From positions 248,001 to 312,000 of the forward strand of contig NZ_MWQK01000001.1 of NCBI RefSeq assembly GCF_002210425.1: 64,000 bases of DNA. Direction: 5' to 3'. Positions 5,106 through 31,664 of this stretch are shown one piece after another. The notes under the pieces are model-generated. The model saw only the letters and a program-made list of their open reading frames with translations. It did no database searches and was not told the origin of the DNA. Position numbers and translations under genes: made by a program. This stretch comes from Fibrobacter sp. UWB2 (GTDB lineage: Bacteria > Fibrobacterota > Fibrobacteria > Fibrobacterales > Fibrobacteraceae). Each line of letters begins with the position of its first letter. Positions within the stretch are counted from its first letter, which is position 1.

Positions 5106-5585
5106 TTAGAACGGAAGATCGACGTCTTCTTCTGCCATGCCTGCATCATAGGCCGGAGCGCTATTCTGCTGCATGCCGTTAAAGCTGTTGGACTGGTAGC
5201 TGTTGGCCTGGCTGAAACCACCTGCACCCGGTGCGCCACCCTGGCCACGCGGAGTGAGGAGCTGGAACGTATCCATGTTGATTTCAGTGACATAGCGCTT
5301 CTGGCCGCTCGTCTGGTCTGTCCAGCTGCGGTTGGTGAGGGAACCTTCAACATAGAGGCTCATGCCCTTGCGAATGCCAAGCTGTTCAACGATATCTGCG
5401 ATTTTGCCCCAGCCAATGATGTTATGCCAGTCGGTCTGTTCCTTCTGTTCGCCGTTGTTGTCACGATAGCGACGAGAAGTGGCGAGGGAGAAAGAAACGC
5501 GCTTGCGACCACCATTGGGATTAACGCGAACTTCCGGATCCTTACCGATATTACCGATGAGCATAACCTTATTCAAATAAGCCAT
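5106..5585 (-). CDS. ssb: Single-stranded DNA-binding protein
   Basis: The 159-residue protein has the classical SSB layout. An OB fold spans roughly residues 1-108, starting MAYLNKVMLIGNIGKDPEVR and including TDWHNIIGWGKIADI and GMSLYVEGSLTNRSW. A Gly/Gln/Asn-rich flexible linker follows, then the acidic tip EEDVDLPF that recruits replication and repair proteins. It coats ssDNA in replication, recombination and repair. It heads an operon with a membrane protein and asd. Its upstream region carries an inverted repeat resembling one upstream of the SNF2-protease gene. Confidence 0.97.
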   Translation of the reverse strand: MAYLNKVMLIGNIGKDPEVRVNPNGGRKRVSFSLATSRRYRDNNGEQKEQTDWHNIIGWGKIADIVEQLGIRKGMSLYVEGSLTNRSWTDQTSGQKRYVTEINMDTFQLLTPRGQGGAPGAGGFSQANSYQSNSFNGMQQNSAPAYDAGMAEEDVDLPF

Positions 5586-5640: not shown

Positions 5641-5660
5641 TTTGACATTTTAGTGTCAAA
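5641..5660 (-). promoter_or_regulatory. Inverted repeat overlapping the ssb promoter
   Basis: TTTGACA and TGTCAAA face each other across six bases. Read on the minus strand, one arm supplies a TTGACA -35-like element, and TATTTTTG follows about 23 nt downstream, in front of ssb. A site of this kind suggests repressor or activator control. A close relative, TGACACTTAGTGTCA, occupies the same position before the helicase gene at 24783. It does not match the F. succinogenes LexA box as I remember it. Confidence 0.5.
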
Positions 5661-15084: not shown

Positions 15085-16530
15085 ATGTTCATTGGCAGAA
15101 AACAGGAATTGCAATTTCTTGAAGACCGATACACAAGCAAAGGCGGACAATTGGTCGTGCTTTACGGCCGCAGGCGCGTAGGTAAAACGGAAACACTTCA
15201 TGAATTTTGCAAAGATAAGCCGCACGTGTTCTACTCATGCCGAGAAGTGTCCGACAAATTGCAGTTACGCAGCTTTTCTTCGAAGATGTTGCAAGAAAAA
15301 ATTCCTGCGGCGAAATATATCTCCGAATTTGACGACTGGGAAGCGGCTTTTGGCGCGGTCTCGGAGTTGCCCTACGGCAAACGTAAAAAACTGCTGATTA
15401 TCGATGAATTCCCTTACATGTGCAAGTTCAACAGCAGCGTTCCATCTGTTTTACAAAACCTTTGGGATGAACGCCTGAAAGACGAGAACATCATGATAGT
15501 CCTGTGCGGCAGCGCAATGAGTTTTATCGAAAAGGAATTGCTAGCCGAGAAAAATCCGCTTTATGGAAGGGCTACGGGAATATTCAAGATGGAACCTATG
15601 GGATTTTACGATGCAACGCAGTTTTTCCCAAAATATTCCGCCCGTGACAAGATTATCGCCTACTCTATTCTTGGCGGAATTCCGCATTATTTGCGACAAT
15701 TCGATTCGGACTTGTCTCTTGAAGAAAACATCAAGCGAAATATTCTTACTAAGGGATGCGCACTTTATAGCGAGGTAGAATTTTTACTTCGACAGGAATT
15801 ACGAGAAACAATTCTCTACAATTCCATCATTGAATCCATTGCGCTTGGGGCAACCAAGTTGAATGACATCAGCAAGAAATCGCTTATAGATGACACCTCA
15901 AAAACAAGCGTTTATCTAAAAAACTTGATAGAACTTTCTATCGTAAAACGTGAATTTTCTGTCGATGACGGCATAAAGGAAGTCGGAAATCGGAATCGCG
16001 GACTTTACCGCTTGACGGACAATTTTTTCCGTTTCTGGTACGCTTTTGTATTTACCAACTATTCTGATTTGGAAAGCGGAGATGTCGACGGCGTTTTTGA
16101 ACATGTCGTTAAGCCATCTCTGCACGAGTTTGCGTCTTTATCTTTTGAAGATGTTTGTCGTGAATTCATCCAAGAAAAGCAGAAATCAGGACTGCTACCG
16201 TTCCGTTATAAGCGGATGGGACGCTGGTGGGGCAAAACTACTGTACGCCGTGGCGATGATACAGAAGTTCAAGAAACGGAAATTGATCTGCTTGCGATAT
16301 CTGCAGATAAGGATAAGTATCTTGTAGGTGAATGCAAGTTCAAGGGCAAGCCGTTTACCTACGGTGATTTTCTCGATACGATGGTAAAGCTTTCTTTGCA
16401 AAAGGAAAAAGCAGAATTTTACTATTACCTTTTTTCAGAATCAGGCTTTGTGGAAAAACTTAGCGACGAGGCTCGCAAGAATCACAATATCCATCTTGTA
16501 AATCTTGATGATATCGTAAAGCTAAAGTAA
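15085..16530 (+). CDS. ATPase of the archaeal ATPase/DUF234 type
   Basis: The 481-residue protein has an N-terminal AAA-like ATPase: Walker A in GRRRVGKTE (near residue 29-37), Walker B LLIIDEFPY, and sensor LCGSAMSF. A winged-helix region and a C-terminal DUF234 domain follow. The C-terminal segment TEIDLLAISADKDKYLVGECKFKGKP has the E-x-D...ECK arrangement of PD-(D/E)XK nuclease folds. Proteins of this family are widespread and scattered in bacteria and archaea, often strain-variable; their function is unknown. Here the gene sits between two FISUMP paralogs and is followed by a bioD remnant, so it was probably inserted or carried by the duplication event. Confidence 0.88.
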   Translation: MFIGRKQELQFLEDRYTSKGGQLVVLYGRRRVGKTETLHEFCKDKPHVFYSCREVSDKLQLRSFSSKMLQEKIPAAKYISEFDDWEAAFGAVSELPYGKRKKLLIIDEFPYMCKFNSSVPSVLQNLWDERLKDENIMIVLCGSAMSFIEKELLAEKNPLYGRATGIFKMEPMGFYDATQFFPKYSARDKIIAYSILGGIPHYLRQFDSDLSLEENIKRNILTKGCALYSEVEFLLRQELRETILYNSIIESIALGATKLNDISKKSLIDDTSKTSVYLKNLIELSIVKREFSVDDGIKEVGNRNRGLYRLTDNFFRFWYAFVFTNYSDLESGDVDGVFEHVVKPSLHEFASLSFEDVCREFIQEKQKSGLLPFRYKRMGRWWGKTTVRRGDDTEVQETEIDLLAISADKDKYLVGECKFKGKPFTYGDFLDTMVKLSLQKEKAEFYYYLFSESGFVEKLSDEARKNHNIHLVNLDDIVKLK

Positions 16531-24582: not shown

Positions 24583-24741
24583 GTTAAGGTCTCCTTCTTG
24601 TTTCCTATAACATGAAATATAATTTTAGTACACAACAAAGATGTGTAAATTTTTGAAATATCGCTGTTTCTGTTGAGAAAATTGTCAAAACATTTTCTAT
24701 ATGCAACAAAGCGTTTTATATAGAAAACGAAAAATTCCATT

Positions 24742-24776
24742 TTGACACTTAGTGTCATTTTGTTTGGTTATATTTG
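24742..24776 (+). promoter_or_regulatory. Promoter with embedded palindrome before the SNF2-protease gene
   Basis: TTGACA at 24742-24747 is the left part of the perfect palindrome TGACACTTAGTGTCA (24743-24757). TATATTTG follows at 24769-24776. The final G is seven bases before the ATG at 24783, so transcription may begin on the ATG itself (leaderless). Confidence 0.6.
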
Positions 24777-24782
24777 TGGATC

Positions 24783-27368
24783 ATGCAAAAGTTTTCGCTA
24801 AAGAATATCCGCTTTTTGATTGGTGAATTTGAAAAACGATTGGCCGATTTGAGGTCATTTTCGGATTTTACATCTAAAGCGGAAGCGGCTGTAAAGGAAT
24901 GTGCCGATGCGGTTTTGAACGCCCTTATTAAGGAAAAGCTCGAAGGGGTATTTCTTGGTCGGCTGGATCTTGAGCCGGAAACTTTGCTTAGTATGACCGA
25001 AAGAAAGGTCACAAACGCTTCTCATTTGATGGGCGTGTCCGAAAGTGTTCTTGCCAACGCATTTGCGGTCCCTGCGGCCGATGCAAAGAAAATCGTTGAG
25101 TATGTGGGGGAGCATTACGAAAATGCTCGAAAATCTGTCAATGTGAAGTTGAATGTTGACGAGAAAACGCGGGAATCGTCTGACCTAGTCCGGGCTCTTT
25201 ACGTTTATCGTCATGGGCTTCCGTTAGCGCAAAAATGCCAAGAACTTTTGAAAGAAAACGAAGCTCGTGTCATTGAAAATATCAACGCATTGCGCCCCTA
25301 TACGAGTTCGTTCAAGTTTGTGGCATCGCTCCTTTTTAACAGGGAGGCGAAAACCCGATTCAATTCGCTGAATGAACTTTATGAGAGTGATTTTTGGCAT
25401 CGTTCTGCGTCTTTGCTTTCTGAATTGCAAGCGCTAATAACGGCGGATCCGTCGTTTGCGTGGGAGGCGTTTTCTCAATCACCGATTCCGTTCTTTACCG
25501 ACTTGGAAAGGATTTGCCCTTACGCATTGGGCAATGAAGAAATTGTTTCGGCCGAATTGCCGAAGGAAATTCTTGACGAAAGGACAAATTTAGACGGCTT
25601 AAAGACGCAGCTGCGCCAATATCAAGTTCTTGGCGTGAAGTTTATTTTGCATCAGGGGCGAGTTTTGTTAGGGGACGAAATGGGCCTCGGTAAAACGGTC
25701 GAAGCGATAGCGGCGCTTGTGACTTTGAAAAATTTGGGTGAAACCCATTTTATGGTCATTTGCCCGGCGAGCATTTTGGTGAACTGGATTCGCGAAATCC
25801 AGAAGCTTTGTGATATTCCAGCCGTAAAAATCCACGGACCGGACAAGTTTATTTATTTTGATGCGTGGAAAAAGAATGGGGGAGTCGCCGTTACGACTTA
25901 TGAAACTTCGAGACAACTGGAATTATCTGAAAAAGATTCCATTTCGATGGTTGTTGTCGATGAAGCGCATTACATCAAGAATCCGGGGAGCCAACGCACC
26001 GTGAGTGTCCGCCAAATATGCAAACACTCAAATCGGTTGCTGCTCATGACGGGTACTGCTCTTGAAAACCGCACGAAAGAAATGCTCTTCTTGTTGCAAA
26101 TTCTTCGCCCGAAGATTGCGTCAATGGCGATGGGCTTTGCTAAAGAAAGTACTAGCCAAGAATTTATGCAGATGATTGCGCCGATTTACTATCGGCGAAA
26201 GCGCGAAGATGTCTTGAAGGAATTGCCGGAGCTCATCGAAGAAGAATCGTGGATTGAAGGTGGCGATGCCGAGATGGCTGCATACGAAGAAGCGGCTGTT
26301 AAAGAAGAATTCATGACGATGCGCCGGGTTTCTTTTAATGTCGACGATTTTGAACAGTCCGGAAAGCTGAAGCGAATCAAGGAGATTGTTCGTCAGGCAA
26401 AATTTGAAAACCGCAAGGTTCTCGTCTTTTCATTTTTCTTGGAAACGATCAAGAAAGTTTGCGCATATTTGAATGATTCTTGCATGGAGCCTATTACGGG
26501 TGCGGTGCCTGTGAGCCATAGGCAAGAAATTATCGATGCGTTTGAAAAATCCCCTGCTGGGACAGTTCTCCCGTTGCAAATCAACGCGGGCGGGCTTGGT
26601 TTGAACATTCAGGCCGCCAATGTGGTCATCTTGTGCGAACCGCAGCTGAAGCCGAGTGCCGAGATGCAGGCAATTTCGCGCGCATACCGAATGGGTCAGG
26701 TTCGAAATGTGCTTGTGTACAGGCTTTTGATGCTTGATTCGATTGACGAGAAAATCAACACTCTGCTCAAATTCAAAAAGCAAGTCTTTAATACGTTTGC
26801 CGATAAGTCTCTGTCCGGGACGCAGGATTTGGAAATCAGTCCTGATGAAATCAAGAATCTTTTCAAGAAAGAAATTGAGCGAATTCGTGCCGCGCAGGGG
26901 AACATTCCGACTGAGAAGAGTCTGATTGCAGCAAACGAGTGGCTAGGAAAAGAAACGAATGAAGAAATAAATGAATTTGGCTATCGGGAACATGATCCGG
27001 TTTTGATAACGCCGGATTTTATGCGGAAAACCTGCGAACGCTACAATGAGCTCTATTTTGAAGGCATGCTAGATGTAGACCGGTTGAGTTTTGAATTGGA
27101 CTATAGTTCTAGTTATTTGGCCTGTTTTGTCCCTAGCTATTTAAGCATTGTATTTAGTCGCCGTTTCGAATTTGATTACCGGAAATACCGCAATACGATG
27201 GTGCATGAAATGTGCCATTATTACCTGTATTCATTTTCGGGAGAAAATGGATCCGACAACACTTTCAAATATGAGACGGTTCACGGCAAAGCATTCCAGG
27301 ATTTGGTCGACAGATTGAATTCTAAACATGCTGAGCTCAATGTGATGCTTAGAGATTGTGATTGCTAA
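24783..27368 (+). CDS. SNF2-family helicase fused to a SprT-like metalloprotease
   Basis: The 861-residue protein has three parts. The first about 260 residues are helical and of unknown type. An SNF2/DEAH translocase core spans about 270-680: Walker A GDEMGLGKTVEA near 296, DEAH motif VVVDEAHYIKN near 391, motif III MTGTALENR, and motifs V-VI INAGGLGLNIQAA and AISRAYRMGQVR. The last about 120 residues resemble SprT/SPRTN zinc peptidases: FMRKTCERYNELYFEGML, then MVHEMCHYYL with the HExxH site near 806, and VHGKAF about 27 residues later with the likely third ligand. The ATG is chosen over an in-frame TTG nine bases upstream. The protein is cytosolic and plausibly acts in DNA-protein crosslink repair. 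Confidence 0.85.
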   Translation: MQKFSLKNIRFLIGEFEKRLADLRSFSDFTSKAEAAVKECADAVLNALIKEKLEGVFLGRLDLEPETLLSMTERKVTNASHLMGVSESVLANAFAVPAADAKKIVEYVGEHYENARKSVNVKLNVDEKTRESSDLVRALYVYRHGLPLAQKCQELLKENEARVIENINALRPYTSSFKFVASLLFNREAKTRFNSLNELYESDFWHRSASLLSELQALITADPSFAWEAFSQSPIPFFTDLERICPYALGNEEIVSAELPKEILDERTNLDGLKTQLRQYQVLGVKFILHQGRVLLGDEMGLGKTVEAIAALVTLKNLGETHFMVICPASILVNWIREIQKLCDIPAVKIHGPDKFIYFDAWKKNGGVAVTTYETSRQLELSEKDSISMVVVDEAHYIKNPGSQRTVSVRQICKHSNRLLLMTGTALENRTKEMLFLLQILRPKIASMAMGFAKESTSQEFMQMIAPIYYRRKREDVLKELPELIEEESWIEGGDAEMAAYEEAAVKEEFMTMRRVSFNVDDFEQSGKLKRIKEIVRQAKFENRKVLVFSFFLETIKKVCAYLNDSCMEPITGAVPVSHRQEIIDAFEKSPAGTVLPLQINAGGLGLNIQAANVVILCEPQLKPSAEMQAISRAYRMGQVRNVLVYRLLMLDSIDEKINTLLKFKKQVFNTFADKSLSGTQDLEISPDEIKNLFKKEIERIRAAQGNIPTEKSLIAANEWLGKETNEEINEFGYREHDPVLITPDFMRKTCERYNELYFEGMLDVDRLSFELDYSSSYLACFVPSYLSIVFSRRFEFDYRKYRNTMVHEMCHYYLYSFSGENGSDNTFKYETVHGKAFQDLVDRLNSKHAELNVMLRDCDC

Positions 27369-27487
27369 AATTGGGTATAACGCCATAAAGCTGTTGTCAT
27401 TTTATCAAGACAAATTCGTTTTTAGCCTTATATAAAGTGAATTTTTCAACTTAGTTTAAAGAAAGTAAGGGACAAAAAGGAGGCTTT

Positions 27488-28984: not shown

Positions 28985-29027
28985 CGCAATTACCATCGGC
29001 TCTCGATAAATTCCTTGAATGGCTCTG

Positions 29028-29201
29028 TTAACGGATTGTTGCGGCTGCTTTTTCAATTTCATCGAAAAAACGTTTGGTGGCGTCTGCATTAGCTTTGCGG
29101 GCGTCTTCGGCTGCTTCCCTCATAATTTGGGCAAGCATTTCATCGGTCGGCTCTTCCATGTCCGTCAATCTGTAAGAATCAATGCTTTTTGTCGTTGTCA
29201 T
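29028..29201 (-). CDS. Small acidic helical protein (57 residues)
   Basis: The ORF begins MTTTKSIDSYRLTDMEEPTD and continues as one amphipathic helix rich in Ala, Glu, Asp and Arg, ending EKAAATIR. An AAGGAG ribosome site stands eight bases before the ATG, which favours a real gene. Small proteins of this look are sometimes the first partner of a toxin-antitoxin pair, but no partner follows. After the stop, another frame reads TEPFKEFIESRW and a stop, which may be the leftover end of a neighbouring or frameshifted gene. The function is unknown. Confidence 0.6.
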   Translation of the reverse strand: MTTTKSIDSYRLTDMEEPTDEMLAQIMREAAEDARKANADATKRFFDEIEKAAATIR

Positions 29202-29268
29202 AGGGGCTCCTTGAAGCCTTATCCCTAATGTGAATATTTGAACGGAACAACTTCTTTTTTTTCAAAAA

Positions 29269-30468
29269 CTATCTATTTCCCTTGGCTCTGTTATGCGATT
29301 TGCAGAGCATTTCGCAATTATTGCGGTCGGTGGCTCCACCTTTACTCCATGCAGTCACATGGTCGGCGTCCATCTCGGTGAGTTTCCAGATTTTATTTTT
29401 GTTTGCGTTTTCTGACATTGCACAGTAAGGGCAATTAGATATTCCTTTCTGCTTGGCAGAAGCTGTTTGCTTGGCATAGACGCTCTTCTTGGTCGCATCA
29501 TCAAATACACGCACATTCAAGAGTTTCTTGTCTTGTTCCCCCCCAAGAATATATTCAAAAATTCCTTTGCGGTCTTTTACATAAGAATCCGCATAGAGTG
29601 ATATAACTCTGTCGTGAATTTCCTTTGGATTGTATGCCTTGTTATGGAATGTTTCGTATAAGCGTCCCCATTCGAGACCACACATTTCACTTTCGGTCAT
29701 ATCAAAAACTCCTGAAACCCAATCAATGACCGTATTAAAATAGGTCTTAAGTTCATTTATATTGTCATCATGTCGGTGTTTTGCCATATAGTATTCTTTT
29801 TTTGTACATCTTAATTTATCGCACTCTTCATCCAATATTTTGAAATTGCTGATCCAGTCAAGAGCTTCGCTCAATACAAGTTGTCGTTTGGCATCCCCAG
29901 AAACATAATGTTTCCATTTCTGCATATTTGAATTTTGTGAGTTGCTGAATTCTGCCTTTGCAGCCGTCACGAACGGACCTGAATAGATGGCATTCAGTAG
30001 TTCCTGGTCATTCAAGGGAATGCCCACGATGTTTATAGTCTTGAACCATTCCTTGATTTCTGTTTCCGTTCCCTCACATTCATAAACAAGTAGCTCGTAA
30101 TTGTCAATCAAACTCCGCTTGTCTTCTGGAAGCGACGAATAGTATTGAGGAATTTTATTTGAATCCATTATGGCAAGTTTTCCCGTAACAAATCGTCCAA
30201 TAGATGTGATTCTTTGCTGACCATCTAAAACCTCGAAATGTTTATCGTCTATTTTATTGAAATAGATTAGCCCAAGCGGGTAGCCTTTGAGCATAGAGTC
30301 GATAACAGCGACATCACGCTTGCCATCAGCGTAAATATAATTTCGTTGGTATTCAGGCTGAATGGTAAGTTTTCCCGAAAGTCCGAACAGCCCCTTAGCT
30401 TCAAGTTCATTATAGACAAATCCTTCGCAGACTTGTTTTACTGTGTATTTTTTTAAAGTTGAAATCAT
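29269..30468 (-). CDS. DUF262 (ParB-like) protein with C-terminal HNH nuclease
   Basis: The 399-residue protein has an N-terminal DUF262 domain with [11 protein letters not shown] (near 36-46) and the [12 protein letters not shown] motif (near 82-93). This is the nucleotide-binding or hydrolysing signature seen in GmrS/GmrD-type modification-dependent enzymes. The C-terminus has an HNH endonuclease: NCPYCAM, then [34 protein letters not shown] with the His, Asn and His of the motif. It overlaps the upstream methyltransferase gene by four bases (ATGA), so the two are made together. It is probably the nuclease of a restriction-like system. DNA around it is AT-rich. Confidence 0.88.
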
Positions 30469-31664
30469 ACTTTATTCTCCTTAAACCGAATAAGAACTCG
30501 TGCGTACACCTGTTGATATATCTTATCATTCACTATATAATAGGTGTCTTCATCGGGAGCCTCCGATAATTCAATTGCAGCGCCATCATTCAACTTTGTT
30601 ACACGGCTTCTCTTTCCATGTTTGTCAACTTGAATTTGTTCTGGGTAAATTTTTGTTGCTCCTCCATACCATGTTTTCGTAATTCCCAAGATTTCAAACT
30701 GCTCAGGACAGTATTTTTCAAAGAAGGTTGGTGGCACTCCCATTGTTCCTTTGTAATCACACGGAATTGTTTCCGTAAACTTAACCTCTATTGCATCATA
30801 ATTATCATATTTTTTGTATCCAACACCTTTAACTTCTTTTCGTTTGCTGAATCGAATATTATCGGATTCTGTCATTAACGATAGAGGTTGGTGACGACGA
30901 CCATGATCAATATTTGTAAACCAATAGGCATTTCCAAGTCTCGTATAATCGCCTATGTATCCTAGTTTCGCTGCTTTTTCTTTATCTTTTTTAGAGACTA
31001 TTGCCCCTTTGGGTACTTCAAACACCATATCGGATCCATTATTTGTTGCTCCTAACCACATCTTATTATCCTTCATTAAAGGAAATATTTCTTTATACGT
31101 GATTGCGTTTGAGGTTCCGATTATTGCAAAACTTTTTTTTGCCTCCATAATCCATGACACAAATTCTCGAAACAAACTAAAAGGAGGATTGGTTATGATA
31201 AAGTCTGCTTCATCTCGCAGTTGCTTGATTTCATTAGAACGGAAGTCTCCGTCTCCTTCTAAATACTCCCACTCAAGGTCATGAATATCTATCCGTCCAT
31301 TTTTATTGGAATCATGGTCAAGCGTAAAAATTTTGCCTCTGATTTTTGACTTATCTTCATCGAACCAAGGTGCCTGCTGTTCAAACAAAGTCGGTTGCCA
31401 ATCTTTGATTTTATACTTTTTAGATTCTATTGCAAAAGATGTTGAAATAAGTTTTTTCAAACCAAGTTTTTCAAAATTTTGAGCAAAGTATAAAGTAAAA
31501 TTACTCCATTCAGGATCATCACAAGGAAGTAAAATTGTTTTATTACGGAATACATCGGGGGCATATTCCAGATAGGCGTTCATTTCCTTCTCAATATATG
31601 CATACTGAGTGTAAAATTCGTCATTCTTATTCTTTTTTGCATTTCCAAGAGCTTTATTCGCCAT
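30465..31664 (-). CDS. EcoRI-type adenine-specific DNA methyltransferase
   Basis: The 399-residue protein matches the EcoRI methylase family in layout: N-terminal [17 protein letters not shown], a region [20 protein letters not shown], and the catalytic [18 protein letters not shown] with the NPPF motif of N6-adenine methyltransferases near residue 157. A segment near [12 protein letters not shown] is also typical. It would methylate adenine in a specific DNA site; the site cannot be predicted. It precedes and overlaps the DUF262-HNH gene, which suggests modification and restriction partners. Codon and base use are AT-richer than in core genes, consistent with transfer. Confidence 0.88.

Follow-up and report, generated by a model that had tools for sequence, protein, structure and literature searches.

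A SNF2 Motor and a Spartan-Like SprT Domain in One Polypeptide at a Gene-Turnover Site of Fibrobacter

Spartan-type proteases need other factors to locate protein roadblocks on DNA. A gene in Fibrobacter sp. UWB2, a member of a rumen genus, raises the question of whether a bacterium has joined the locating motor and the protease in one chain, and, if so, which DNA-bound proteins such a chain would attack. It lies in a contig stretch of 64,000 nucleotides, called the window below. A sequence-only reading had proposed that the gene encodes a self-contained machine for the repair of DNA-protein crosslinks.

Domain Anatomy of the Fusion

The frame at 24783-27368 (+) is open and, by ORF translation, gives 861 aa from the ATG at 24783; an in-frame TTG lies upstream at 24774. 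The SNF2 motifs and the C-terminal HEMCH and HGKAF segments described in the sequence-only reading were all located in this single frame, within domains that Pfam recognizes above its cut-offs:

24783..27368, + strand: whole gene, SNF2 motor and SprT-like protease fusion, 861 aa (ORF, Pfam, orthologues)
24783..25589, + strand: N-terminal region, residues 1-269, predicted helical (alignment with relatives; low-confidence model)
25620..26333, + strand: SNF2-related domain, residues 280-517 (Pfam, motifs, fold match)
26364..26696, + strand: helicase C-terminal lobe, residues 528-638 (Pfam, motif VI)
26883..27029, + strand: linker, residues ~701-749 (motor relatives end inside or just before it)
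27030..27344, + strand: SprT-like zinc metalloprotease domain, residues 750-854 (Pfam, profile, fold model)
27204..27218, + strand: HEMCH (HExxH) active-site motif, residues 808-812 (sequence motif)
27282..27296, + strand: HGKAF with the third predicted zinc-ligand His, residues 834-838 (sequence motif)

Both lobes of an SNF2-family motor are present, with GDEMGLGKT (Walker A) at residues 297-305, VVVDEAHY at 390-397 (DEAH 393-396) and AISRAYRMGQ (motif VI) at 630-639. In the whole protein, Pfam detects SNF2-rel_dom (3.8e-35), Helicase_C (3.5e-15) and SprT-like PF10263 (1.7e-7), all above the curated cut-offs, and a search with the C terminus alone strengthens the last of these to 7.6e-9 (35.8 bits against a cut-off of 25.6), bearing out the earlier assignment. 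Since these scores exceed the curated cut-offs, the SprT-like call does not reflect chance; since an identical single-frame architecture recurs in four separately assembled genomes, neither does the fusion reflect an assembly error. Near the N terminus, residues ~83-104 align with a helix-hairpin-helix stretch of relatives that is degenerate in the window protein (FAVPAADAKKI), and the chain terminates soon after the SprT domain (...LRDCDC). Thus, an SNF2 motor and a bona fide Spartan-like SprT domain form one polypeptide.

The SprT Domain Resembles Spartan

To characterize the protease part, residues 711-861 were modelled separately with AlphaFold from an alignment of 14 sequences (pLDDT 83, pTM 0.79). 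The predicted model has the SprT fold proposed for it, with human SPRTN (6mdx) as its best match (VIA-align Z 14.0 over 120 aa, rmsd 3.1 Å), followed by archaeal selecase (Z 8.8) and Wss1 (Z 5.9); Foldseek concurs, returning human Spartan at E 2.3e-4. A profile built from the SprT domain and its phage relatives found only SPRTN in the PDB (1.6e-14), in an alignment that pairs HEMCH with HEMIH and HGKAF with HGPEF. The single C-terminal sequence gave no match to the PDB with phmmer, so it is the family profile, Pfam and the fold that carry the SPRTN assignment. None of the four intact copies of the fusion departs from HExxH or from the third His (HGxxF), and the phage SprT relatives keep both as well.

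The likeness to SPRTN (PDB 6MDX and 6MDW) thus comprises the fold, the HExxH...H zinc-site motif and the top structure and profile matches. SPRTN, unlike the Fibrobacter protein, has no SNF2 motor, and the fusion stops right after the SprT core, leaving no room for SPRTN-style C-terminal binding motifs. The gap from HExxH to the third His spans 21 residues in the fusion versus 14 in SPRTN, and this loop, ~7 residues longer, is the poorly predicted part of the model. Bacterial stand-alone SprT (NCBIfam NF003339, PRK04351) shares the Pfam family PF10263 with the fusion, which scores 16.3 bits on NF003339, far under the 113-bit cut-off.

The nearest SprT sequences that we found are short proteins of large phages, on contigs of 280, 412 and 94 kb, with 31-33% identity. 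Those of the 412-kb (L193) and 280-kb (L192) contigs share the HEMCHYY, HGKxF and LNxKY signatures with the fusion but stand alone, without a motor. SprT-like peptidases have been noted in jumbo phages, where cleavage of host proteins was suggested (PMC7824862). The phage-like character of the nearest domains hints at phage-host exchange. When the SprT part alone served as the query, the plasmid and phage collections gave no match. SprT-like protein families occur on several phage contigs (L192-L199), and those of L194, L196, L197 and L199 are ~456-459 aa long; their N-terminal part is helical, and a long insertion separates HExxH from the third His.

Protease-Free Relatives of the Motor

Eight relatives of the motor (L068-L075) are collinear with residues 1-~715 at 31-47% identity, including part of the N-terminal region. 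Six are on plasmids of Aerococcus, Lactobacillus, Rhodococcus (two), Nonomuraea and Arthrobacter; the others come from a provirus (L075, probably actinobacterial) and from a contig of human gut origin that is catalogued under 'Bacteriophage sp.' (L068), whose protein is 47% identical to the fusion motor over 614 residues. A helix-hairpin-helix stretch is detected in L068 (HHH_5) and weakly in L071. All eight stop about where the Fibrobacter linker begins, and none has a SprT domain. Because every motor relative examined lacks SprT, the simplest reading, and the most likely one, is that the motor gained the protease in the Fibrobacter line, rather than that others lost it. In viral contigs, the full fusion protein found no close relative and L068 as a query found nothing; a search with the family alignment returned 80 SNF2 relatives, and no frame of these 80 loci contains an HExxH...HGxxF motif.

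The motor core of the full-length AlphaFold model matches nucleosome-bound ISW1, INO80 and SNF2h. The N terminus of this model is unreliable and, because its alignment held few sequences, it has neither a usable SprT part nor a resolved domain interface.

Within the motor region, and there alone, the fusion resembles the SNF2 proteins DrmD (DISARM) and DpdE (PADLOC PDLC02627, 1e-106, and PDLC02852, 9e-106). PADLOC SNF2 models match broadly, however, with hits in 9 of 14 ordinary control genomes, so that likeness to DrmD is not in itself evidence of defence. Membership in DISARM was rejected: DUF1998/MZB (PF09369) occurs in none of the four carrier genomes versus 8 of 14 control genomes. Inspection of nearby ORFs recognized no dpd cluster and no tRNA-guanine transglycosylase-like DpdA.

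Several of the motor relatives adjoin genes of conflict: L068 (458-7488) holds the protease-free motor together with genes for a DUF2325 protein and for PtuA and PtuB of Septu, and others lie next to HmaA (L071), a DNA methylase (L070) and hsdS genes (L069). We weigh this neighbourhood lightly because plasmid and phage-contig collections favour defence-type genes.

Distribution and Genomic Slot

A profile search covering the Fibrobacterota found the fusion in 4 of 168 genomes, all of them Fibrobacter (4 of 80). In this genus, the fusion gene is rare and patchy. It is present in two public assemblies of F. succinogenes, with protein identities of 97% and 89%, which makes this the most likely species of the window. 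For orthologue pairs reaching down to 89% identity, dN/dS is about 0.03-0.06 for the motor and about 0.15-0.35 for SprT; all parts of the gene are under purifying selection. A fifth genome (G130) retains a decayed remnant, in which the first ~560 codons are gone and a deletion has removed the protease core, equivalent to 27043-27329.

Alignment with seven non-carriers delimits what the carriers have in addition, with approximate limits:

24724..27390, no strand: carrier-specific segment, flanked by genes for a VWA lipoprotein and a GH30-like protein

This segment consists of the fusion gene and its promoter alone, and no partner gene travels within it. One carrier genome (G147) has the fusion gene and GH30 together but a different upstream neighbour. 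In G129, the identical slot holds a 1955-aa DUF4011 helicase (L189 8131-13998), a candidate for defence with matches to PDC-S37 (E 0) and to Hhe (8e-169). Elsewhere, slot occupants include genes for a transporter, for a sulfatase-like protein and for a flavodoxin-like protein. We considered a pure defence island and dropped it, as the survey shows ordinary genes there in most genomes; the slot is a gene-turnover site that sometimes holds defence genes, and the fusion gene is an accessory gene gained there by some Fibrobacter strains.

In the carriers, conflict-type genes lie beyond GH30, on its far side from the fusion gene. In the window, these are a type II restriction-modification pair at 29269-31664, a GmrSD_N-HNH nuclease and an EcoRI-type methylase, with GC of 0.36-0.40 versus 0.48 for the window. 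Carrier G001 has a TOTE-type primase-helicase and a PDC-S27 ATPase beside GH30 (L065 5632-9502), and carrier G102 has an intact zeta toxin gene near the fusion (L064 12202-12870). Window positions 29018-29228 are 97% identical to the G102 region that holds the start of the zeta-toxin gene, of which the window seems to retain only a scrap. At 15085-16530, the window also encodes an ATPase_2/DUF234 protein related to PADLOC PDC-S27.

The Upstream Palindrome

The sequence-only reading had also pointed to a promoter palindrome shared with ssb:

24743..24757, no strand: palindrome TGACACTTAGTGTCA, 25 bp before the fusion ATG

The likeness is real, as the arms of this element recur, around a spacer of 6 instead of 5, in TGACATTTTAGTGTCA at 5643-5658, which precedes ssb (minus strand, ORF 5106-5585) by 58 bp. 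The regulatory link to ssb appears weak, because such sites front unrelated genes and because the palindrome is absent upstream of the 89% identical orthologue (L033); we give it no weight as a sign of co-regulation. TGACA-N5-6-TGTCA occurs seven times in the genome versus twice for the reversed control, and the seven sites precede unrelated genes. The TTGACA within the palindrome resembles a -35 box. A TGACA-N6-TGTCA site (L228 1501-1516) stands 43 bp upstream of a gene for an rsmA-like methyltransferase. An SOS box was considered and rejected, since the palindrome is unlike the LexA site of the host species, which we take to be TGCNCN4GTGCA; the literature searched returned nothing on the LexA box of Fibrobacter.

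Possible Functions

The natural reading of this anatomy, and one that it supports well, is a motor that would carry a protease to DNA-bound proteins, with both translocation and proteolysis predicted from the two families. In the mechanism that we propose, the SNF2 motor would engage duplex DNA and move along it, and the tethered SprT domain would cut proteins held there by tight or covalent binding, the protease having presumably joined a motor that in other settings does its work alone. The likeliest use would be against protein-DNA complexes of an incoming phage or plasmid, with the clearing of stuck proteins from the cell's own DNA as a near rival. We regard motor-delivered proteolysis in an accessory, invader-directed role as the best explanation, a tentative choice to which we give slightly less than an even chance. 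That the gene is distributed patchily and is swappable speaks against a core role in crosslink repair and favours an accessory one, which, perhaps directed at invading DNA, fits somewhat better than housekeeping repair. A more specific proposal, a one-gene defence in which the motor would patrol incoming DNA and the fused protease would destroy attached terminal, packaging, replication or partition proteins, is conceivable, and we consider it rather doubtful. In the literature searched, mostly papers outside subscription, nothing relevant turned up on an SNF2-SprT fusion or on SprT in anti-phage defence.

The dedicated crosslink-repair machine of the sequence-only reading would work much as Spartan does in animals: the motor would meet a crosslinked protein on the chromosome, for example one made by an aldehyde, and SprT would degrade it. 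Its SprT domain is structurally nearest to SPRTN, whose role in crosslink repair is established (PMC7782752, PMC5128727), and the fused motor would take the place of the factors that recruit the protease in eukaryotes; the weak palindrome also found before ssb points the same way. The gene, however, is absent from 76 of the 80 Fibrobacter genomes, sits in a fast-turnover slot and is decaying in one species; the motor's relatives lack the protease and often stand beside restriction or defence genes; no repair operon or repair gene was found adjoining the fusion; and the palindrome is not kept in L033. This proposal did not fare well, and we now judge crosslink repair unlikely, if still a serious contender.

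Known defence systems include several with an SNF2 protein as their driver, and the fusion could instead act as a triggered effector or switch, in which recognition of foreign or abnormal DNA would lead SprT to cleave a host or partner protein, or itself, with abortive infection or regulation as the outcome. The accessory setting and the conflict-type genes nearby are compatible with such a role, as is the capacity of SPRTN to cleave itself (PMC7826251); on the other hand, the carrier-specific segment offers the fusion gene and no partner, and we consider this alternative improbable. Still less probable, to the point of being hard to credit, is a SprT domain that merely binds DNA or protein as a non-proteolytic addition to a remodeller: its evolution is faster than that of the motor (dN/dS up to 0.35) and the poorly predicted loop that joins its two zinc motifs exceeds that of SPRTN in length, but HExxH and the third His are invariant among the intact copies and across the phage relatives.

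Implications

A protein of this kind, in which motor and protease share one chain, would show finding and cutting coupled in one bacterial protein and would lend itself, as a simple system, to measuring how a motor drives the proteolysis of DNA-bound proteins. If motor-delivered proteolysis acts on incoming DNA, it would represent a form of defence that destroys the proteins attached to DNA instead of cutting the DNA itself. The fusion is real and unusual, and it may be directed at damage, phage or another target.
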